Shown here piece after piece: positions 36,250 to 62,792 of a stretch of 64,000 nt of DNA (the stretch's first letter is position 1; the number at the start of each line of letters is the position of its first letter). Source of the DNA: Craspedostauros australis (taxonomy: Eukaryota > Bacillariophyta > Bacillariophyceae > Mastogloiales > Achnanthaceae); NCBI GenBank assembly GCA_026770025.1, contig JAMXDE010000005.1:434001-498000 (forward strand), written 5' to 3'. Position numbers and translations under genes: made by a program. Below the pieces are notes generated by a model. The model was not told where the DNA came from. It saw nothing but the letters and a program-made list of their open reading frames with translations, and did no database searches.

Positions 36250-39200
36250 ATGATCACGAGGAAAACGAGGCCAACCGGCAGCAGCAGCAGCCTTCTTGGC
36301 ATGTTGTTGTTGCTTTGCATGTCGGCCGCGTTCTTGGCGAGCGTCGATGCCGAACGTCCCGTGATCACGCGGCGCCTGGAGGAGGACTACGGCCAGAAGG
36401 TGCTGGACTACATCCATGCCAATCCGCAGGCCCTTGGCGTGGAGGCCGAGGACGTCGACGAGCTGGAGCTGACCGGCGTGGCTCCTGGCGCCTACCAGCA
36501 CACGCGCCAACCGGCAGACGACGACGATGGCGCGAGACGCCGACTGCGCGGAGACAACATGGTGCACAGGCACAGCGCGGACAGGAAGAGCACGAGCCAC
36601 GTCTACATCGTGCAGTCGCACAGCGGCATCCAGGTCTCCAACGCGCGCGCCACCGTCATCATGGTGGGCGACGAGGTGCAGCAGATCAACTCGCGCTTCC
36701 AGAACAAGCTGAGGGAGTGCAGCACTCTGCCGGAGGACCGCGCTGTCTCGGCGGCCGACGCCATTGAGATCGCGGCGGTGGCCTTCGAGAACGTCACCGA
36801 CCTCGACACCGTCGTCTTCCCCGTCGTGGAGAAGAAGGCCCCGCAGCCCGGCGACGCCACGATGGCCACCGTCTTCGAGGGCCAGCCGGGCCTGTCCAAC
36901 GAGGACATCCCAGCGCACCTCACCTACTACAACATGGAGGAGCAGGACTGCGACGTCCGCCTGGCATGGAACATCATGCTGCACGTCGACGCCAACAACA
37001 GGCTGGAGATCTGGGTGGACGCCAGCGTCAACAGAGGCGGCGTCCTGCAGCACAACAACTGGGTCAGCGGCGCCACCTACTCCGCGCTCGCCCTGCCCAA
37101 GGAGAGCCCCTGCGTGGAGTGCAACTACGCCGATTGGATCACCACCTTCGAGAACATCCCGCTCGATGTCGTCGTCGATCCAGAGATTTCCAACGCCTCG
37201 CCCGAGGGATGGTTGACGTACGGCTCCCACACCTACGACGTCGCGCAGGGCAACAACGTCAACGCCGTCATCGAGAAGGATGGTTACGACTATGGCCGAT
37301 ACTCGGTGCCTGAGACGTCGCCCGGAGTCTTCGACTACTCCGGCTTTGGCTTCTACGAGGCCGAGTGGGAATCCACCCGCAACCCTGCGGTCGTCAACGT
37401 CTTCTACGTCGTCAACCTCATCCATGACATTCTCTACCAGTACGGCTTCGACGAGGCCAGCGGCAACTTCCAGGAGGACAACTACGGCAACGGCGGCATC
37501 GGCGGAGACTCCATACGCGCCGAGGTCGACTACAAGCAGTACAACAACGCCAACATGTACACGCCGCCCGATGGCCAGAAGCCGCTCATGCAGCTATACC
37601 CGTTCGACATGGCGCTGTACGGCTCCGTCGGTGAGCCGCAACCATCCGTCTTGGTGGGATCGTCATCGTACGCCCAGAAAGGAGTCAATGTAGAATTCGC
37701 AAGCGGTTGGGGTAAGTGGTGGAGAGTCTCGTTGTGATGCGTTCCGACTGTGTACGAAGAGTGCGGGAGATGTTCGATTCATGCGACATGCGCACTCACA
37801 CTTTCGCTACCGTGCTTCCATTTCATTCCACAATATGCGCACTTGCATGAACACTTCCATGGACACTGGCACACGTCGTCGACAGGTGACTTCTTCGCCT
37901 GGGGCATCCGCGGCGCCGACATCGTCGTGTCCGACACCGTTGGCAGCCTCGAGTGCGAGGCCAAGCAGGACCAAGCCTACGAAGGCAAGGTCGTCATCAT
38001 CCAGGAGGGAACCTCAGCCCAAAACGTCAACGGCTGCGACTTCCCCACCAAGGCATTGTACGCCCAGAACCGCGGCGCCAAAGCCGTCCTTTTCGCAGGA
38101 CAGGACGAGACTCTGGCTCCGATTGTCCCCACCACCAGCCAAGGCACAGCCGCCGCGCCGCTCGTCACTACGCCAGTGGCGATCATCAAGAGGAGCGACG
38201 CGCTCAATGCCATCACGACGGCCAACAATGGAGGCACGTCGTACTTTCTGGCCCCTCCGCCTTTCGTACACAGCGCCTTCGACAACGGTACGTTGCATTG
38301 CGGCGCAGCGAAAGCATATCTTTGTTTGTTTGTTTGTTTGTTTGGATCGTGACTTCGCCGTGGATGTTGCTGCCTGTGACATCATCACATGGGCCAGGCA
38401 GCTCTGCTACTTCTACTTGCAGGAGCACTTGACTCGTGATCCATTCCCAGCGCCCCCTCCACTCACTCGTCTTTACCCACTATCCCATCACACGATCTGA
38501 CTGGATCGCGCCTTGTCATGCTTTGCAATGTCCTGGCACGGCAAAATCACAGGTATCATTGCCCACGAATGGTGCCACGGCCTGACCAACCGCCTGCTGG
38601 GAGGAAGCAAGACGTCGAGCTGCACCGCCAGCGGAGGTATCAGCAAGGGCATGGAAGAGGGTTGGAGCGACTTCTGCGGTCTCTTCTTCACCGCAGAATC
38701 TCCATTCGATACGCGCCGCAGCATGGGATCGTACGTCGTGCTCAGCTCATTCGATGTCCGTCCGGGTGTCTACTCCCCTGACATGAACGTGGACAGGGCA
38801 ACATACAACGACGCCGTCCGCACGGGCCCTCTCTACTACAACGGGTGGACTTGGAACTCGATCCTCTGGGACATGTTCTGCGCCTTGGTGGAGCAGGAAG
38901 GATTCAACAAGGACATGGCCCAACCCGGAGTTGGCGGCAACAACATGGCCATGGAGCTCGTCGTCGAAGGGTTGAAGGCCACCACCTGTCTCCCCAGCTA
39001 CCTCGATGCTCGAGAAGGAATCCTCAACGCGTACCAGAACCTCTACCCGAACGGTCCGTACTACTGCATGCTGTGGGGCGTCTTCGCAAGACGTGGAGTT
39101 GGATACTCTGCCACGGGAACACAGCCCCTCACCCCCGGGTATGACCTGCCACCCGTGTGCAGCAGCTACTCGCTGCCCCGAGTATTCTGGCCAACGGAGA

Positions 39201-41977
39201 AATCCTGCTCCTTTGATTCGGACTGCACGGATTCCAGCCACATGGGATGCGCGCGCTCGTGCGTGAGCGGCATGTGCGATTATTCCCCGTGCACCGGCTT
39301 TGTACCCGTAACCGTCACCTCGTCACCGACGTCACAACCGACCACTGTGCCAACAAGCGCACCGACCAGTGAACCCACCAGGACCCCAACCTCCTCGCCC
39401 ACCGCGGAACCATCCAGCAGCCCGACCGTCAGCGAAGCACCTACCAGCTGCGTTGATCCGAATGCAGCTCAATTCATGGCATCGACCAACGCGACCTACA
39501 CATCTGAAACGTCCCCGATCGTCCTCACCTTCGAGAACGATGCCGGAACAAGTATCGAGTTCAACTTCGTCCAGACCATCATCAACAGCCAGATCCCGTA
39601 CGTGTTCATCAAGTACGTGAGCCAGGAGACCGGAGCAGAGAAGTGCGCCGAGTTTGAAGATGTCGACTTCGGCAGCGCGCATCAGCTCTCCGCCGAATGT
39701 TCCGAAGGAACCACATCGGTGGTGATCTACACTTACAAGGGTGCCGATTGGTCAAGCCAAGGTTGTCAGTCGTGCAGCATCCCGAAGGATGAGAATGATC
39801 TGGCCGATCCAGAAAACTTCGAGGCGTACTACTTCGAGATTCCGTGCCAGACCGAGTGCATCAATCCGACCGCGGCGCCGACGGACTCACCGACGAGTGC
39901 ACCGACCAGCGAGCCGACAACACAGCCAACGGACGAACCAACCAGCCGTCCGACGTCTAACCCAACGGTACAGCCAACGGATGAACCGACTTCTGCACCG
40001 ACCTCCAACCCAACGGTGCATCCAACGGACAAACCAACCAGCCGTCCGACGTCTAACCCAACAGTGCAGCCAACGGACGAACCGACTTCCGCACCAACCT
40101 CTAATCCGACAGCACAGCCAACCGACAAACCAACAAGTGGTCCGACGTCTAACCCAACAGTGCAGCCAACGGACGAACCGACTTCTGCACCGACCTCTAT
40201 TCCGACAGCACAGCCAACGGATGAACCAACAAGTGGTCCGACGTCTAACCCGACGGTGCAGCCAACGGATGAGCCGACTTCCGCACCAACAGCTGGGCCA
40301 ACTGCTGAACCGACGTCCAACCCGACAACACAGCCCACGACCACACCAACTGCAGGACCAACCAGCGGGCCAACTTCATCACCGACTTCCGCGCCAACTA
40401 CGGCGCCGACCACTAGTCCAACGACACAGCCCACCACCGAACCAACTGCAGAACCAACCACCGGGCCGACCTCATCACCGACTGCTGGACCAACGTCTGG
40501 TCCAACAGGTGGGCCAACCTTCGCGCCAACAGCTGCACCGACTTCTAGCCCAACAACACAACCCACGGCCACACCGACTGCAGGACCAACCAGCGGGCCA
40601 ACCTCATCACCGACTGCTGGGCCGACTGCTGGACCAACCGCAGGACCAACAGGTGGGCCAACTTCTGGGCCAACAACAGCACCAACTGCAGGCCCGACTT
40701 CTAGCCCAACAACACAACCCACGGCCACACCGACTGCAGGACCAACCAGCGGGCCAACCTCATCACCGACTGCTGGGCCAACGTCTGGACCAACCGCAGG
40801 ACCAACTGCAGGCCCGACTTCTAGCCCAACAACACAACCCACGGCCACACCGACTACAGGACCAACCAGCGGGCCAACCTCATCACCGACCGCTGGGCCG
40901 ACTGCTGGGCCAACGTCCGTACCAACCGTGGCACCAACCAATGAACCAACAGGCAAGCCCGTATTTGGACCCACCAGCGCTCCAACCAGCGCACCGACAT
41001 CTGTCCCAACTCTTGGACCAACCAGCAATCCTACCACTGGGCCAACGAGCGGACCAACCTCCGGCCCGACTTCTGGACCGACCAGCGCACCAACTGTTGG
41101 GCCAACTAGCGCACCAACGACTGGACCAACCTCCGTGCCAACAGCAGCACCAACTGCAGGCCCGACTTCAGAGCCAACCAGCGAACCAACAGGCAAGCCC
41201 GTCTTTGGACCCACCAGCGCTCCAACCAGCGCACCGACATCTGTCCCAACTCTTGGACCAACCAGCAATCCTACCACTGGCCCAACAAGTGGGCCAACGA
41301 GCGGACCAACCTCCGGCCCGACTTCTGGACCGACCAGTGCACCAACTGCCGGGCCAACGAGCGCACCAACAACTGGGCCAACCTCCGGGCCAACAGCAGC
41401 ACCAACTGCAGGCCCGACTTCAGATCCAACCAGCGAACCAACAGGCAAGCCCGTCTTTGGACCCACCAGCGCTCCAACCAGCAATCCTACCACCAACCCA
41501 ACCTCCGGGCCAACAGCAGCACTCCCAACGCAGTCTGACGAGACCGAAGACGACAATCCAACGAGCAGCAGCTGCCCTCAAGATATCAAGCTTATCAGGA
41601 CCGTCGGTGTGACTTCCGTCCCATCGATTCCAATCGAGATCGTGAGCCAGGACACACAGACGGTTACGTACAGATTCAACCAACCGTGGCCGGAGACAGT
41701 CGACGCAGTGTGGCTCAGCCACCACAACACAGCCACCGGCGACATCGATTGCTTCGAGGAGATGAATGTCGCTCCGAAGCAAACTCTCGAATTCAGTGCC
41801 ATGTGCCGATCCCACAGCTCGGTAGCCGTCATCGATGTATTCGTCTCTGACGACGGCATCCTCACCCCGGGAGGCGATGTTTCGGAGATTCCGCAGTGCT
41901 GCCATGCCACCATCCCGGCAGAAAAGCCGGTGGTGCACTACATCTTCGAGCTGCATTGCAAGTCGAAGTGCGACTGA
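36250..41977 (+). CDS. secreted M36 (fungalysin-type) metallopeptidase with PA insert and long PT linker
   Basis: Three exons, 36250-37711, 37886-38287 and 38553-41977, both introns phase 1, giving 1762 residues. A signal peptide (about 1-34) ends near ASVDA. A fungalysin propeptide follows (SHVYIVQSHSGIQVSNARAT). The catalytic domain includes VFDYSGFGFYEAEWES and LIHDILYQYGFDEASGNFQ. Exon 2 inserts a PA-type domain (YEGKVVIIQEG, CDFPTKALYAQNRGAKAV) just before the zinc motif HEWCH (626-630), with the third ligand in EGWSD (Glu 657). After a Cys-rich segment come a short PT stretch, a novel 145-residue domain (about 920-1065), about 550 residues of PT tetrapeptides and a 135-residue C-terminal Cys domain. 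It probably degrades proteins outside the cell or at the wall, with the PT tract as a glycosylated spacer. It is tandem with a shorter paralogue. Confidence 0.93.
39880..41530 (+). repeat. PT-tetrapeptide coding tandem repeat
   Basis: About 1.65 kb of 12-bp-periodic sequence coding for PTxx units (PTSG, PTDE, PTAG, PTTQ). Larger units are visible: QPTDEPTSAPTSNPT-like units in the first third, TQPTATPTAGPTSGPTS-like units in the middle, and a roughly 240-bp unit in the last third holding GKPVFGPTSAP, which occurs three times. The nested periods show repeated unequal duplication. Confidence 0.9.
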
Positions 41978-43854: not shown

Positions 43855-46800
43855 ATGATCACTCGGAAATCGAGGCCGAGCGCCATGCTGGGGCTCTTGG
43901 TGTTGCTGTGGGCGCCGGCCGCATGCTTGGCCTCGGTGAACGCAGAACGACCCGTCATCACGCGGCGCCTGGAGGAGGACTTCCAGCAGGAGATCATGGA
44001 GTACCTCCAGACGAACCCGGAGGCCCTTGGTCTGGGTTCCGATGACATCGAGGAACTGGAGTTCACCGGCATCGCCCCAGGAACGTACCAGCACACCACC
44101 GAGTCAACAGGCTCCGATGATAGCGATGACGGCGATGACGGCGATCAGCGCAGACTGCGCGGAGGCACCGTGATTCAGAAGAAGGTGCACAGGCACGGCA
44201 AGGGCAGGAAGAGCACGAGCCACGTCTACATCGTGCAAGCCTTCCGCGGCATCAAGGTCTCCAATGCGCGCGCCACAGTCGTCATGGTGGGCAGCAAGGT
44301 GAAGCGCGTCAACTCCCGCTTCCGCAAGCATCTCAAGGAGTGCGTCACCTTGCCCAAGGACCGCGTGCTCTCGGCGCACGACGCAGTCATCACCGCAGCG
44401 GAGGCATTCGGCGACCTCGTCGACTTCGCCAGCGTCAGCCTCCCCCTCTCCGAGCCGGAGGGCCCCAAACCCGATGACAAGACAAAGGCCACGGTCTTCA
44501 CGGCCCAGCCGGGCTTGTCCATCCGCGACATCGACGCCCATCTCACCTACTTCAACATGGACGGCGAGGATTGCGACATCCGGTTGGCATGGAACGTCAA
44601 GATCCACTTCAACGCCAACAACAGGATGGAGATCTGGGTGGACGCCGGTCCGAAGCAAGCTGGCGTGATCAAGTCCAACAACTTGGTCAGCGAAGCGACC
44701 TACTCCGCGCTCGACCTGCCAAAGGAGGCGCCGTGCGTGGAGTGCAACTACGGCACCTGGATATCAACCTACGACAACGACATCCCAGTCGACGTCATCG
44801 TGGACCCAGAGATGTCCAGCGCATCGCCCGAAGGTTGGTTGACGTTCAACTCACAAACATACGGCGTCACAAGAGGCAACAACGTCAACGCGCTCTTCGA
44901 GGAAGACGGAGCCAACCTCAACGTCTACGAAGTGCCCGAGACATCCCCTGGGGTCTTCGATTACTCCGGTTACGGCTTCTACGAGGCGCAGTGGGAGTCC
45001 GTGAAGAACCCCGCTGTCGTTCACCTCTTCTACATCCTCAACCGTCTGCACGACATCATGTACCAGTACGGCTTCGACGAGGCCAGCGGCAACTTCCAGG
45101 AAGACAACTACGGCAACGGCGGCCTTGGCGGAGACTCTCTCGAAGCAGAAGTAGATTACAAGGAGACCAACAACGCCAACATGTACACGCCACCCGATGG
45201 AGAAAGGCCCCTCATGCAGATGTACCCGTTCGACTCCGCGATGTACGGCAATATCGGTGAAGTCCGCCGTTCCTTCTCGGTGGGACCGTACACATTCAGC
45301 TCCAAGGGTACTGACATTGAATTCACCAACGACTGGGGTAAGCGTGTTGTGATGTGATGTGTTGTGTTGTGCCACGCTGTGCTGTGGAGAGAGACATGGT
45401 CGATTCCAACATTCATACATACATATATACATACAAACTGCGCACTCACACATTCACGCATTCATTGCAATGCCTCTCCCCAAACATCCGCATGCCATAC
45501 CCAATACTTTCTTGTCGTCGATCTTATGAAACCACAGCCGACCTCTTCGCTTGGGGCATCCACGGTGCTGAGATCGTCTTGTCCGATACCGAAGGCAACC
45601 TCGAATGTGAGCTCAAGGAGGACAATGCCTACGAAGGCAAGATCGTCATCATCGAGCAAGGAAACTCAGTTCTCAACGTCAATGAATGCGACTTTGCCAC
45701 GAAGGCACTGTACGCACAGAACCGTGGTGCCCACGGTGTCGTCATTGCGGGAAAGAACGAACGACTCATCGAGCTGTCGCCGTTCACCAGCCGCGGAGAC
45801 GCCGCCGCGCCGCTCGTCACCATCCCGGTGGTGCGACTCAAGAACAGCGACGCGGATAACGTCATTGCGGAAGCCAACAGCGGATCCACGGCCTCTTTGG
45901 TGTCGACCCCACCTTTCGTCCACAGCGCCTTCGACAACGGTAAGTTGCATTTCTTGTGACCTTTGATCGCTCTTCCTGCACGCTGAGGTTAGATTGTGCC
46001 GGAACTCAAATCAAAACAACATCTTCCCACCGAGCCATCCTATTGCGTTGATGGATATCCGCATGATAACCATGAACATTCATCTCGTATGCCACCGCCC
46101 CGAGGTTGGATCTTCTCTTTTCTCACCGCCTGCCTTCGCTTTTGTTTTATCGTTGTTATTAACATTGTCGCTCCACACATGCGGCTTCTTCCATGACGAC
46201 CGGCGTTCAAAACGCAGGTATCGTCGCTCACGAGTGGTGCCACGGCTTGACCAACCGGCTGTTGGGTGGAAGCGACACATCCAGCTGCACGATGAGCACA
46301 GCCGATGGAAACGTTGCGAACGGAATGGAAGAAGGCTGGAGCGACTTCTGTGGTCTCTTCTTCACTTCATCATCTCCCTTCAAGACACGCCGCACCCTTG
46401 GTTCGTTCGTGCTGCTCAACAGCCAAGGTGCCCGTCCGGATTACTACTCGCCCGACATGACCATCGACAACGCTGTCTATGACGGCAGAGTCGCCTCATC
46501 GGACATCTACTACAACGGGTGGGTGTGGAACTCCATCCTTTGGGACATGCACTCCGCGTTGGTGGAGCAGGAAGGCTTCAACACCAACATGGCCGAGCCC
46601 GGTATGGGTGGAAACAACATGGCCATGGAGCTTGTGGTGGAAGGCCTGAAAGCCATCGCTTGCTTGCCTTCCTTCATCGATGCCCGCGACGGAATTCTGG
46701 ATGCGTACGAGAATCTGTACCCAGATGGTCCGTACCACTGCATGCTGTGGGCCATCTTTGCACGACGTGGACTTGGGCATTCCGCCACGACATCGCCCAT

Positions 46801-47749
46801 CGCTTCCGGATATGATCTGCCGCCCGAGTGCAGCAGCTACTCGCTCCCCTCAGTATTCTGGCCGACGGAGAAGAGCTGCTCCGTCGATTCCGACTGCACG
46901 GACTCCAGCCATTTGGGATGCCCACGCTCGTGCGTCGAAGGCATGTGCGATTACGCTCCGTGCTCCGATTTTGTTGTCACGGCGACAACCTCGTCCCCCA
47001 CATCTACACCAACTTCAGGGCCGACCAGCGGGCCAACTGAGAATCCTACTTCTGGGCCGACCAGTGGGCCTACTTCCGATCCGACCACTGGGCCGACGTC
47101 TGGACCAACGAGTGGACCGACCAGTGAGCCGACCGCTGGGCCAACTTCTGGACCTACTGCCAGACCAACGTCCGGTCCGACTAGTGCAGAAACCTCGGGA
47201 CCTACAAGTGGGCCAACTTCTGGGCCAACATCTGCGCCTACCAGCGGGCCAACACCTGGAACCACTGGTAACCCAACCAGCGGTCCAACTAGTGGTCCGA
47301 CATCAGCGCCTACCGCCCAGCCTGGGGACGACGGGCCCAGCGGTTGTCCTCAGGATATCGAACTTGTGAAGGTGGATGGCGTAACCCCTGCCCCATCGCT
47401 CCCAATTGAGATCGTGAGCCAGGGCGCAGATTCGGTGACATACAGATTCACCCAACCGTGGTCGACAACGATCGACGCTTTGTGGCTCAGCCATAACAAT
47501 GCAATGACGGGCGACATCGAGTGCTTCGAAGAAATCGACGTTGCTCCCAACCAGACTCTCGAATTCAGTGCTCAGTGCCATGGCGAGTCTTCGATCGCCA
47601 TCATCGATGTCTTCGTTGCCGATGATAGCATCCTCACCCCTGGCGGCGATGCTGCGCAGATTCCGCAGTGCTGCCATCCCACTACCCCAGAAAGCATGCC
47701 GGTGGTGCATTACATCATCGTGGTCCAATGTCAGTCCACTTGCGAATAA
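43855..47749 (+). CDS. secreted M36 (fungalysin-type) metallopeptidase, shorter tandem paralogue
   Basis: Three exons, 43855-45337, 45538-45939 and 46218-47749, giving 1138 residues. Both introns sit at the same codons and in the same phase as in the upstream copy, and exon 2 is again exactly 402 bases. A signal peptide ends near ASVNA. The propeptide (SHVYIVQAFRGIKVSNARAT), the catalytic segments (VFDYSGYGFYEAQWES), the PA-type exon (YEGKIVIIEQG), HEWCH (633-637) and the third ligand Glu in EGWSD (667) are all present. The 145-residue extra domain of the first copy is missing, and the PT tract is only about 115 residues (about 887-1000). The C-terminal Cys domain (CPQDIELV to CQSTCE, about 1003-1138) is shared. 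Both copies look active; the difference lies in spacer length and the extra domain. Confidence 0.93.
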
Positions 47750-54868: not shown

Positions 54869-57160
54869 TCAACACACTTTCATGGCCCCGTTGCTGCCTG
54901 CTGCAGCACCTGCGCTCGCATCACCCCCCTCGTTCTCATTGCCAGAATCTTCCGTCGGCTGGCGATGCTGGTCTTCCATCGGGCTCGACGCACCGCCGCC
55001 TCCCATCATGTTCCCGATCGCTGTCTGGGTTTCCATGGTTAGCTTGGACAAGTTGGAGGCCGTCTTGGCATCTCCCATCCCTTCCACGGGACATGACGGA
55101 TAGGCGAACAGGCTCGGTTCCTCATCGGGATTGCCGGCGGATCGGATGCGATTCCCGTTCACCTTCTGCCGCGTCATGCGCCGCGTGAGGAACTTCATGC
55201 CGCGCAAGAACTTCTCGTGGTAATACGAACCTTGATCCCGACCGGCGCTGAACCGATTGAACCCGTACAGGTTCAGCTGCCGCAAGAACGATGATTTCTT
55301 GGTCATGACGAAGTACCGGGGCAATATGATCTCCGAGAATTCCCTTTGCTTGAAGATCTTGAAGCTGCGTCCGTGCGGCATCCACCCGATGATGTGGGCG
55401 TAGCCATGATCTTCGATCTGGCTCAACGTCTCGTGGAGCTTCAGCGGGAATGCAGCGTTCGGGGTCCTTGATGCGGAGGTCGCGGCAAGGACCAGATCGT
55501 GCTCCTCAGGCCATGGCTTCTCGCTGGACAGGTCGCGGTAGATGTGCCGGACGAACAGACGGCGGTTGTTCTTCGTCGTCACACCAGGTGGGAGCTTCTT
55601 GTAGTTGTAGTTCTGGGCGAGGTTGCCATTGCGGAGCTGACCATCCTCCATGCTGCCGTCGTTCGGGGATGAGTAACCTCCTGCGGCGGCCTGAGGTTGC
55701 TGCTGGGTCAGCGAGGAGGCGCTGCTCTGCTTCGCGAGGATGGGGACAAGGTTTGGCACTGCAGCCCTCGCTGCATCGCCCTGGGCATCCGTCGATGCGA
55801 GCCGCATCTCCTCCGAGCTCACCATGGCGAGCATCTCGATGGAGTTGCTGCGATGGGTCGGCCCCGCGGCTGGCGTTGGCATCTTGGGCGTGCCATCCGC
55901 GGCTAATTGTGCTTGTGCTTGTGGGGGTTGCTGGGCTGGGGTTCGTTGCATTGCCAAACCAGCCGCTGCCCCTGATACGGATGGTTGCTCGAGGACCGTT
56001 CGCGATGGCGTCGTCGTGACATCGTCCTTGGGTAGCTGGGCGATGGGGACGGTTGCGGTTTGGTTTAGGCCGACGCCGGTAGAAGCAGCACCAACAACAG
56101 GGGTGGCAACAGTGGTAGCTACAGGAGTAGCCAAAGGGGTAGTGGCAATAGCAGGCACCTTCAGCACAGAGTTCGAGCGGGTGGAGGAGATTGGGTGCTG
56201 CACAAGCTTCGTCGCTAGTGCCGGTTGCGATTGAGCCTGGGGCTGAACCCGCGCTTGTGCTTGTGCCTGACTCTGCTGGAGTTGTTGCTGTTGCTGGAGT
56301 TGCTGCTGCTGGACAGTCATGTGATCGGCATGGCGGTTGGGTGTACGTATTGTGGGTGGTGCTTTGCCTTCGAGACTCGCCCATGGGCTGGATTCCGCCC
56401 TTTGAGATGTGGCCTTGGCCGTCTGCCTTTGCACGTGGCCTTGCTCAACGTTGAGAGGGGCTTGTGATTGGAGCGTGATGCACGCCACGGCCGTGCAGAT
56501 CGCCGGTGAGTGGACACCGACCGGCGGTATGTACAGTCCGCCCACAGCCACTTGGATGGGCAGCACGGGAATGGCTCTGGGGAGGATGGAGGTGAGACGC
56601 GACACATCGACGACCATGGTGTCTGTCAGGCTGGAGGTGCCCAGCTTGGGAGGCACGCCCAGCTGCACCTTGATCTGCAACGAATGCGCGTTGGTTTGGG
56701 TCGGCAAGCGCAGTGTGCTCCTTTGCATCGCATCCTGCAGCGCTCTCATTGCCGCCTCCGTTGCATCACCCCACTTTGCCGATGCTGACGAATCAATCCC
56801 GAAGCCGATGCTGGACATCGATAGCAGCGTTTGCTCCACCATGGCAGCAGCCTGTGCCTGCGCTTGCGCCTGTGTCTGCATTGGGACGTCGCTTTGAAGG
56901 GAGTGCTTTGGCAACCTTGCACCAGACGCAGCCTGTGCAGCACCGCTCGCGTTGGTGTGCGCCGATGGGACAGACCGTGTGGTCGCCACTCTCTCCGTTG
57001 CCGCAGCCGTCCCTTGTGTCAAGGGCACCGTTGTGACGCTCGAAGTCGTGGAGGCTGACATGGACGTTGCTCGGGCTGATGTAGCTGTGGCATCGTGCCT
57101 CTCCACCGCAACGCCGAGCAACGTAGCGGCAGTTTCTTGCGTGCTCGCATCGACGTTCAT
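54869..57160 (-). CDS. heat-shock-factor-type DNA-binding protein with fused Lin0512-like domain
   Basis: A 763-residue intronless protein. Residues 1-110 are Ala/Thr/Gln-rich. Residues 114-232 match the Lin0512 family pattern: SIGFGIDSS, then GDATEAAMRALQDAMQRSTL, LQIKVQLGVP, VDVSRLTSILP and IQVAVGGLY. Residues 283-330 are Gln-rich and 340-500 low complexity. The HSF DNA-binding domain is 570-668: FPLKLHETLSQIEDHGYAHI, IGWMPHGRSFKIF, then the recognition-helix region FVMTKKSSFLRQLNLYGFNR and YYHEKFLRG. The usual heptad-repeat trimerisation region is not obvious after it. It presumably acts in the nucleus as a transcription factor of the expanded diatom HSF family. In the Lin0512-like part the His of the usual D-x-H-G is missing, so it may act as a binding or oligomerisation domain rather than as an enzyme. 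Target genes are unknown. Confidence 0.92.
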   Translation of the reverse strand: MNVDASTQETAATLLGVAVERHDATATSARATSMSASTTSSVTTVPLTQGTAAATERVATTRSVPSAHTNASGAAQAASGARLPKHSLQSDVPMQTQAQAQAQAAAMVEQTLLSMSSIGFGIDSSASAKWGDATEAAMRALQDAMQRSTLRLPTQTNAHSLQIKVQLGVPPKLGTSSLTDTMVVDVSRLTSILPRAIPVLPIQVAVGGLYIPPVGVHSPAICTAVACITLQSQAPLNVEQGHVQRQTAKATSQRAESSPWASLEGKAPPTIRTPNRHADHMTVQQQQLQQQQQLQQSQAQAQARVQPQAQSQPALATKLVQHPISSTRSNSVLKVPAIATTPLATPVATTVATPVVGAASTGVGLNQTATVPIAQLPKDDVTTTPSRTVLEQPSVSGAAAGLAMQRTPAQQPPQAQAQLAADGTPKMPTPAAGPTHRSNSIEMLAMVSSEEMRLASTDAQGDAARAAVPNLVPILAKQSSASSLTQQQPQAAAGGYSSPNDGSMEDGQLRNGNLAQNYNYKKLPPGVTTKNNRRLFVRHIYRDLSSEKPWPEEHDLVLAATSASRTPNAAFPLKLHETLSQIEDHGYAHIIGWMPHGRSFKIFKQREFSEIILPRYFVMTKKSSFLRQLNLYGFNRFSAGRDQGSYYHEKFLRGMKFLTRRMTRQKVNGNRIRSAGNPDEEPSLFAYPSCPVEGMGDAKTASNLSKLTMETQTAIGNMMGGGGASSPMEDQHRQPTEDSGNENEGGDASAGAAAGSNGAMKVC

Positions 57161-59063: not shown

Positions 59064-59660
59064 ATGTTGGGTGAGGAGACCGAACAGCAGACAAAGAAGA
59101 GCCTTGGCATCGCCAAGTCCATTCACATTGATGCTCCAGCAAGAGTGGTCTGGGATCAAATGCTGAACGTGTCAACCTACGCACAGATGTACAAGACCTG
59201 CACTGGTGTCACGCTCCTTTCACAAGGTGCCGGCCACACGAAAGAAGTGCTGCAACGCGTCAAGCCTGGCGTGCGGTACCTGGAAGATCGCCTCATCAAT
59301 GGCCGCACGTTCGCCTTTGTGACTGATGTCACCCACGTGAAAGAAGACCACGACGCAGGCAGCTACGAATTCAGCCTGGTGACCGGCCTTTGGAAATCGC
59401 TTGGTTCATCCACCAACGTGCTCCAAGCCATCGACGAACACTCCTGCACCCTGACCATCGTGTATGCATTAGTCCCCGACAGTATGTACGGGCGTATCTA
59501 TTTGCGCCTATTCCGAAAGCGAATCACACGAGATGGCTTTATTTCCATCACCTCGGATCTTGAGGACATCAGGGATGCGGTTACACGTTCCCTCCCGCGC
59601 GGAGGGCAGCACCAAGTTGACATCGCACATCGCGAACGTAACGAAGTTCCCTGTGGATAG
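59064..59660 (+). CDS. SRPBCC-fold (START/polyketide-cyclase-like) protein, copy 1
   Basis: A 198-residue single-exon protein. The SRPBCC pattern is clear: a first strand and helix (SIHIDAPARVVWDQMLNV), then strands with VRYLEDRLINGRTFAF, YEFSLVTGLWKSL and CTLTIVYALVPDSMYG, and a long C-terminal helix (about 160-190) that would line the hydrophobic cavity. It probably binds a small lipid or polyketide-like ligand; enzymatic activity cannot be told from sequence. No signal peptide, so it is likely cytosolic. The next gene is a paralogue in the same orientation with matching motif order (DAPxxVVW near the start, IPRTMWGHI near the end), which implies local duplication. Confidence 0.82.
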   Translation: MLGEETEQQTKKSLGIAKSIHIDAPARVVWDQMLNVSTYAQMYKTCTGVTLLSQGAGHTKEVLQRVKPGVRYLEDRLINGRTFAFVTDVTHVKEDHDAGSYEFSLVTGLWKSLGSSTNVLQAIDEHSCTLTIVYALVPDSMYGRIYLRLFRKRITRDGFISITSDLEDIRDAVTRSLPRGGQHQVDIAHRERNEVPCG

Positions 59661-60466
59661 CAACCAGAGGCAAATACTGGTCCCAGGCTCACATACTGAT
59701 ACTTGCATCACAGCTATGGTTGCAACAAACACGTCTCACACACACATTGTGAGTGCTTTCATATGGACACGGTGCCGGTGTGAACAGTACCTGCCATGCA
59801 TCCTTGCATTCACAATGATTACTGGAGGATGAGAAGCATCGCAATGCTTCATTCCATTGCAGTAATGCGCATGACACCGATGAATTGTAGATAGAGAGAA
59901 AGGAGAAGCGCCTATACCATACATTTATTTTGGACAATACCATTACGACTATGTACTTGTATCACGTCCTGTTATGAGTGTCTTGGCTACGAAGCATGAT
60001 GCCGCCAGTGGACTTATTCATCGCTCTGCAGACCCCTGCGATGCGATGGCAGAGAAACGGTGAGGCCTTGGCGATGAACCGACCAGGGACTCAACTCGGG
60101 AACAAAACCTCCTCGCGGAGACACTTGGAGTGGAGTTGAACACAGAAGAACAACAAGGAGAGAGAAATCCAAACACACACCACCGCTCTCTTTGAATGAT
60201 TTGCGCGCTGTTTTGCGCGCCACCTTTCGCATCGTCCGCCTCCACAGCGAGACAACAGTAACCCAACCCAACCAAACCAAACACGCATCCACATCACATT
60301 TGCCTCCCTGAATCGTCTGTTCCTCTTGTTCTTCAGATACCCTTCTTCATTCAGTTGGCACGTCATATTCCGTCGTACACGCCAACACCTACGATCACAA
60401 GCAAGAACGCACAGTAGCCCACATACTCGTCATTCCGCACTCCTCACACCTCAACCCACGAACGCC
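59661..60466. other. intergenic region between tandem paralogues
   Basis: No gene seen. The last part is a C/A-rich probable leader of the second SRPBCC gene; the frame is open 47 codons upstream of the chosen start. Confidence 0.5.
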
Positions 60467-61048
60467 ATGCCAAGCAAAGATGCGAGCCGAGAACTTTCTG
60501 TCACCATGGCGAAAAGCGTCATCGTCGACGCGCCGATCGATGTTGTGTGGGAGATCTTGCGTGACATTCCGTCATACCCAACCATCTTCACCACCTGCTT
60601 GAACATTCAGCCGGCGACCTCGAAGATCGACGGAGATCTTGCTTCGACTAAAGGCATCTACGGGAAGGGATCGCGGTATATCTACACGCGCATGGTGTCG
60701 GGACGCAAGGCCGATTTCGAGTACACCATCACGAAGGCAGACATAGATCCGGTGACTGGCGAACGGCAGCTAGCGACGGCCAAGCAGACGGGGTTTGCGA
60801 CCGGAACGAAGACCTTCACTCTGCAAGAGATAGATGACAGCTCCTGTCTACTAATGATCTCCTTCGCAATCATCCCACGGACCATGTGGGGGCATATCCG
60901 CCTCCGCCTCACCATACGACAATTGAGGCTCATCACCGGAGATACTCTGACCGCGGATCTGCAGGATGTCGTTACGGAGGCTGCGAAGCGGACGTCAAAG
61001 ATGCCCACCGAACGGCCCGACACTCATCGCATCATGGCCAGCGTATGA
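60467..61048 (+). CDS. SRPBCC-fold (START/polyketide-cyclase-like) protein, copy 2
   Basis: A 193-residue single-exon protein starting MPSKDASREL. An upstream Met (60326) would add 47 His/Arg/Ser-rich residues with no parallel in the neighbour, so I prefer the internal start. The fold signals are KSVIVDAPIDVVWEILRDI, then IYTRMVSGRKADFEYTITKA, TKTFTLQEIDDSSCLLMISF, IIPRTMWGHIRLRL and a C-terminal helix. It aligns with copy 1 along its length but is clearly diverged, so the duplication is old. Ligand unknown; cytosolic location is likely. An alternative reading with the long N-terminus as an organelle presequence cannot be excluded. Confidence 0.8.
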   Translation: MPSKDASRELSVTMAKSVIVDAPIDVVWEILRDIPSYPTIFTTCLNIQPATSKIDGDLASTKGIYGKGSRYIYTRMVSGRKADFEYTITKADIDPVTGERQLATAKQTGFATGTKTFTLQEIDDSSCLLMISFAIIPRTMWGHIRLRLTIRQLRLITGDTLTADLQDVVTEAAKRTSKMPTERPDTHRIMASV

Positions 61049-62018: not shown

Positions 62019-62792
62019 ATGACATCGCGTTCCAGGCATGCGGTGCAACGAGCACTCACGATGGTGATGGGAAGACGAGCTCTCTCAATTCCAAATGCAA
62101 GCATGAACATGGGTATGGTGAGTGGATCGTGGGAATCCAGGGTATCGATCCATTCGAGCGAAGGCAATGGACCCGGCAGGACAAGCCATCATATCCATGC
62201 GAAAAGATGGACGTCGGACTCGACGCAAGCATCATCGCAATCGCTCTCGTGGCAAGATGCCACTGCGGATCAGGACCGCCCTGCGTGGTCGAAGGAATGG
62301 AAGGAACAGGGCCTGGGCGCGACGCTGATGGATGCACCGAAGTTCCCCCAAAAGCTCTTCTTCGTCCAGCTGGGTTTCGGCGTGGATCAGCACGGCGACA
62401 GGTCCGATGCCACGAAGGCGGCCACGCGCGCCGTGCGCAACGCGATTGAATTCAACAGCATCCCTGGCGTCATCGAGCACATCCCCGGCGGGCGCAAGGA
62501 GATGCTGATCCATGTCAAGCTGGGGTTGCCGCAGGGTTCCAACGTGGATGCGTTGCAGGTCGCGAAGGTGTTTCCCTACGGGCGGTTGCTGCCGATCGAA
62601 ACCACAGTTGGAGGATTGGATTTCGCAACAGGCAGGGTCGTGGAGGAGCTTGGCGATGCAGACGATGTTGGGATCTGCGTCGTTGCTTGCATATCCATTG
62701 GTTACAATGATGCCGAGCACGAGACATCGCAGCCGCCCTCACAATCGAGCCCCGATCAGCACAAGACATACAGCACGAAGGATGGATACTAG
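62019..62792 (+). CDS. Lin0512-family protein with probable mitochondrial presequence
   Basis: A 257-residue single-exon protein. Residues 1-35 (MTSRSRHAVQRALTMVMGRR and on) are rich in Arg and lack acids, as in mitochondrial presequences; there is no ER signal for plastid import. Residues about 36-110 are low complexity. The conserved domain is residues 113-231: LFFVQLGFGVDQHGDRSD, then ATKAATRAVRNAIEFNSIPG, MLIHVKLGLP, KVFPYGRLLPIE and TVGGLDF. It keeps the D-x-H-G and T-K-A-A signatures of the family (Pfam Lin0512_fam, found in bacteria and some eukaryotes). The biochemical function of the family is not known to me. A diverged version of the same domain lies in the HSF-type protein encoded about 5 kb away on the other strand. 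Confidence 0.88.
   Translation: MTSRSRHAVQRALTMVMGRRALSIPNASMNMGMVSGSWESRVSIHSSEGNGPGRTSHHIHAKRWTSDSTQASSQSLSWQDATADQDRPAWSKEWKEQGLGATLMDAPKFPQKLFFVQLGFGVDQHGDRSDATKAATRAVRNAIEFNSIPGVIEHIPGGRKEMLIHVKLGLPQGSNVDALQVAKVFPYGRLLPIETTVGGLDFATGRVVEELGDADDVGICVVACISIGYNDAEHETSQPPSQSSPDQHKTYSTKDGY

Follow-up and report, generated by a model that had tools for sequence, protein, structure and literature searches.

The window analysed here, 64,000 nucleotides of the genome of the diatom Craspedostauros australis (contig JAMXDE010000005.1, positions 434,001–498,000; coordinates below are those of the window), harbours at 54869–57160 on the minus strand a gene for a 763-residue protein (residue 1 at 57160) that joins an N-terminal Lin0512-type domain to a DNA-binding domain of the heat shock factor (HSF) type. 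The extent of the coding frame was taken from the open frame together with Pfam matches. It runs without a stop over 763 codons, which would arise by chance with a probability of ~1e-10 (from base composition alone), and the stop counts in the other five frames range from 7 to 23.

Domain content and anatomy of the fusion protein

Two families are recognised in the protein: (i) Lin0512_fam (PF09585) at residues 118–229 (E 5.9e-8; 33.2 bits versus a curated cut-off of 23.4), and (ii) HSF_DNA-bind (PF00447) at residues 571–665 (E 2.5e-19; 70.1 bits versus a cut-off of 22). No other family, and no PAS domain, was found in a Pfam scan of the fusion protein with E up to 1. The original prediction, made from the DNA letters without database searches, had proposed the Lin0512 homology of the N-terminal domain; this is borne out by the Pfam gathering score and by the predicted structure, which shares the fold of the solved Lin0512 member (3c8l, "FtsZ-like protein of unknown function"). 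The FtsZ C-terminal domain and the Rid family are structural neighbours of this fold. From the Lin0512 family (PF09585/TIGR02058) the fusion protein differs in its attached HSF, in the signature residues described below and in a score under the TIGR02058 cut-off.

Conservation among 19 aligned members (fusion protein included; values in the following are median identities of the 18 relatives to the fusion protein) is confined to islands, all listed here from the minus strand. A motif at residues 1–20 (V-D-A-x-T-x-E-T-A-A-x-L-L-G-V-A; 57101–57160; 0.47), apparent from the alignment of relatives, supports the assigned start codon. It is followed by the Lin0512-type domain at residues 111–236 (56453–56830; 0.52), delimited by Pfam and predicted structure, and by a short helix with a SIEMLAM-type motif at residues 440–457 (55790–55843; 0.50 for region 437–458), which alignment and model place within a linker predicted to be disordered. 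The DNA-binding domain at residues 571–665 (55166–55450; 0.80) is flanked by a conserved preceding segment at residues 521–569 (55454–55600; 0.57), partly common to certain HSF paralogues that yielded no Lin0512 match, and by a conserved following segment at residues 669–690 (VNGNRIRSAGNPDEEP-like; 55091–55156; 0.68). Linkers and tail reach a median identity of just 0.05–0.16. Confidence in the full-length structure model (mean predicted local distance difference test score 51.0) is limited to the Lin0512 domain, which is predicted to be well ordered, and to portions of the HSF domain; apart from one helix, disorder is predicted for the linker.

The DNA-binding domain is complete and matches solved human-type HSF1 and HSF4 chains, with similarity in the recognition helix visible in the alignment. 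To judge by this resemblance, it is expected to bind DNA in the manner of other HSFs. Ordinary HSFs trimerise via a heptad helix (HR-A/B). The fusion protein resembles them in its complete DNA-binding domain and differs in the extra N-terminal domain and, apparently, in the lack of a clear heptad helix or repeat after the DNA-binding domain, as judged from the alignment, a home-made heptad score rather than a dedicated coiled-coil program, and the low-confidence full-length model. The suggestion that the Lin0512 domain stands in place of the trimerisation helix is weak: among the best 30 of the 118 HSF matches in the same genome, only 3 of the 29 other HSFs (L005, L006 and L015; same score, both strands) have a clear heptad helix, so that its absence does not single out the fusion protein.

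Conservation in relatives and residue changes in the fused domain

A search with residues 108–236, restricted to proteins of HSF-like length, returned 46 proteins, of which precomputed annotation assigns both Pfam families to 33, Lin0512 only to 11 and HSF only to 2, the latter starting within the Lin0512 domain. Direct search with the DNA-binding domain of the fusion protein recovered at least a piece of this domain in 44 of the 46 (exceptions P0012 and P0016), and a Pfam re-scan of nine relatives found both domains in all nine, each above the Lin0512 gathering score. Fused domains of other species are up to 77 % identical to that of C. australis. Named owners are Cylindrotheca fusiformis, C. 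closterium, Nitzschia inconspicua, Nitzschia sp. Nitz4 and metagenome-assembled genomes of Bacillariaceae; Phaeodactylum, Seminavis, Fragilariopsis and centric diatoms do not appear among the named fused matches, which does not prove absence. A profile search of proteins with the whole fusion protein (7999 candidates, probably drawn in via Q-rich words, as we guess) yielded 35 matches and little gain in taxonomic breadth.

Two relatives, P0003, which is among the 46, and P0169, a match of the whole-protein profile search, are transcripts of the Marine Microbial Eukaryote Transcriptome Sequencing Project (MMETSP), and each encodes both domains in one reading frame. Since the frame in C. australis is likewise open, no intron is needed between the domains, in agreement with the original prediction; the transcript support for a single gene comes from these two relatives. 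The fusion of a Lin0512 with an HSF domain is real, and we regard this as practically certain. Of 51 relatives searched, 49 gave a DNA-binding match, and 25 of these carry a second HSF domain at the C terminus (cut short in one of them; P0022 was left out of this count, its two pieces resembling one split domain), whereas the fusion protein has one only. Relatives with a second domain include P0001, P0008, P0013, P0034 and P0042, and several of the second copies read SSFQRQLHMYNF instead of SSFLRQLNLYGF.

Residues of the Lin0512 domain were compared by column counts over 45 fused and 41 free rows (the free rows include 20 proteins taken from 120 listed ones and 19 rows from the 80 bacterial loci; the N-terminally cut P0038 and P0046 omitted here and from the tree), numbered after the free protein encoded at 62019–62792. 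In the free rows, H125, G126, N146, S147 and P149 are kept in 41/41, N141 in 39, G188 in 37, and K133 and Y187 in 35 each. The histidine of the D-x-H-G motif, rightly noted as absent in the original prediction, is H in 41/41 free rows versus S, N, G or C in 44/45 fused rows. Fused domains have a remodelled H-G loop, and in them K133 is replaced by E (39/45), N141 by D (45/45), N146 by S (41/45) and P149 by R (40/45), PYG loses YG and retains P, and the D213 loop is lost or switched. From the free-protein signature (D-x-H-G, TKAA/RN/NSxPG/PYG), the fused domains keep the D, the T, the alanines and the P, whereas H-G, K, N, NSxPG as well as YG have been lost or exchanged. Kept in fused and free rows alike are G119, G121, D123, T134, A136, A140, A144, L167, P170, P194, G207, G208 and A226, i.e., 13 positions retained in at least 80 % of the rows of each group. 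Conversely, D143, R147, M182 and V184, as well as G168 and V169, are fixed in 45/45 fused rows yet variable in free rows. Because the replacements are conserved and not scattered, they suggest a new function instead of decay. The lost residues may have formed an active site.

Origin of the fusion and genomic surroundings

The genome contains four Lin0512 matches, read as three genes, versus 118 HSF matches. A free-standing paralogue of 257 residues (62019–62792, plus strand; 98.6 bits) lies 5 kb from the fusion gene and is not part of it; its N-terminal extension could, as a guess, serve organelle targeting. The third gene, apparently spliced, is located on contig C9. A recent origin of the fused domain from the gene 5 kb away is not supported, given 31 % identity between the two versus up to 77 % among fused domains. 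Closeness of fused and free genes is not general either, since the respective proteins of C. closterium and N. inconspicua are listed with different longest contigs.

The nearest paralogues of the DNA-binding domain in the genome are 45–48 % identical (e.g., C3:1876918 and C50:358243) and have the preceding conserved segment in common, and no Lin0512 was found in the frames of these and other nearest paralogues; the Lin0512 domain was thus probably added to an HSF of this type. A fused-domain profile applied to the open reading frames of 40 HSF loci of the same genome (some represented twice) matched, above the inclusion threshold, only the fusion gene, itself present as two loci. Searched by themselves, residues 1–487 of the fusion protein matched only their own sequence, plus one weak match.

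Gene neighbourhoods of bacterial Lin0512 homologues were compared at 80 loci, 18 of them from Listeria, with gene order placed for only 57. In 16 of the 80 loci, all from Listeria (including L040, L045 and L047), a helix-turn-helix gene (MarR-like by eye) immediately precedes the Lin0512 match on the same strand, ending roughly 10–30 bases before it. A universal-stress-like gene is found nearby on the opposite strand in 16 loci, also all Listeria, an ABC ATPase recurs in 15 loci at scattered positions, and the two Azospirillum neighbourhoods are unlike each other. These neighbours tell little about function, and the helix-turn-helix gene is at most a hint that Lin0512 proteins work with transcription regulators elsewhere.

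Between the fusion gene and the free Lin0512 gene, two adjacent genes of the polyketide-cyclase/lipid-transport type are located on the plus strand (59064–59660 and 60326–61048; PF03364, with PF10604 under its cut-off). Further away on the plus strand are two adjacent genes for M36 fungalysin-type metallopeptidases that contain PT repeats; each gene extends over two open frames (36250–37737 and 38513–41977; 43855–45357 and 46193–47749), the second pair identified by a Pfam M36 match and the first by resemblance.

Possible roles of the fused domain

HSFs are abundant in autotrophic stramenopiles (PMC4222949), and Lin0512 is not mentioned in the examined parts of that paper. A second paper reports that HSF families are greatly expanded in diatoms (Phaeodactylum has 67, making up 34 % of its transcription factors), and the haptophyte HSF-PAS proteins that it describes provide a precedent for the fusion of a possible sensor domain with an HSF (PMC4827209). 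The fusion protein resembles the latter in joining a possible sensor domain to an HSF in an alga, and differs in that the domain is Lin0512 instead of PAS and the owners are diatoms instead of haptophytes. In the literature searched, which leaves most subscription papers outside, no description of a Lin0512–HSF fusion was found, as had been supposed, and no mention of Lin0512, PF09585, TIGR02058, CHP02058, IPR011719, 3c8l or Npun_R1471. Public protein sets already carry both Pfam labels together, so the architecture is known to databases, while no discussion of it in print came up in these searches.

Overall, the data point to a real, conserved and probably single-origin fusion within HSF-type regulators. 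We favour, with a probability of roughly 0.6, a lineage-specific diatom HSF-type transcription factor whose Lin0512 domain would be a repurposed regulatory module; that this module lacks the activity of its parent appears likely to a similar degree. An N-terminal Lin0512 domain and an HSF domain are held in one protein by a poorly conserved linker, predicted to be disordered, with one conserved helix, and have stayed together in many relatives. The Lin0512 domain would have given up the role of the free family, because most signature positions (H-G, K, N, NSxPG, YG) differ across the whole clade, and the repurposed module may interact with a small molecule, with a partner protein or with itself, thereby adjusting the activity of an HSF domain that would bind DNA in the usual way.

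Several points weigh against this interpretation. (i) The fused domain reaches only 13.1 bits with the stricter NCBIfam model TIGR02058 (cut-off 56.85); having passed the Pfam cut-off and missed this one, it is a genuine but diverged Lin0512 relative outside the TIGR02058 subfamily. (ii) Although the 45 fused domains form one clade in a quick 86-row tree (support of 100 in the Shimodaira–Hasegawa-like approximate likelihood ratio test, SH-aLRT), making a single fusion event likely, this clade sits on a very long stem. (iii) The attachment of this clade is ambiguous, as four constrained trees, joining it to the free gene at 62019–62792 (P0051 included or left out), to the second free gene or to bacterial rows, were all accepted by the approximately unbiased test (p-AU 0.68–0.76) and all scored above the quick tree; support is confined to its being one clade. 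(iv) Loss of activity is read solely from residue changes, in a family whose free members have no known function. (v) Some activity or ligand could remain, since D123, T134, P194 and the strand with its two glycines are retained. (vi) Ligand, oligomer and DNA target of the fused protein are all putative.

As to what such a regulatory module would do, the Lin0512 domain is best read as serving either sensing or self-association. Ligand sensing as its main role, and with it the hypothetical metabolite-sensing transcription factor of the original prediction, is a tentative proposal. Slightly more doubtful is a ligand-gated HSF, in which the Lin0512 domain, probably recruited once in diatoms from its free-standing role, would act as receptor for a small molecule or partner and set oligomer state and DNA binding; in the literature searched, such a route was found described for no HSF. 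To be placed on a par with the latter is the view that the domain is mainly an oligomerisation module (e.g., a trimer) replacing the HR-A/B coiled coil. RidA and Bacillus chorismate mutase, which are structurally related trimers, would fit this view, as would the apparent lack of a clear heptad helix, were it not so common in this genome.

That the fused domain is still an enzyme with changed specificity, i.e., a trigger enzyme joined to a DNA-binding domain, is rather improbable: the 13 commonly kept positions (including G119, G121, D123, T134, P170, P194, G207 and G208) and a conservation far above that of the linkers speak for it, but most or all fused rows have lost or switched H125, G126, K133, N141, N146, S147, P149, Y187, G188 and D213, and no reaction is known for the free family. 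A non-functional, decaying remnant, compatible with the vanished signature residues, is very unlikely in view of the median identity of 0.52 over 18 relatives (0.07–0.16 in the linkers), of residues invariant in 45/45 rows and of the well-ordered structure model. Two adjacent genes erroneously read as one by gene model or assembly, conceivable with another Lin0512 gene just 5 kb away, are refuted by the relatives' two transcripts and by the many conserved relatives with the same domain order. Further points against this are the single open frame and the neighbour itself, which lies on the opposite strand and shares just 31 % identity with the fused domain.

To our knowledge, it is not known what most diatom HSFs respond to. 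A conserved fused domain with fixed residues of its own offers a concrete handle on one of them, as it can be purified, crystallised and screened for ligands, and it also represents a lead to the function of the Lin0512 family itself.
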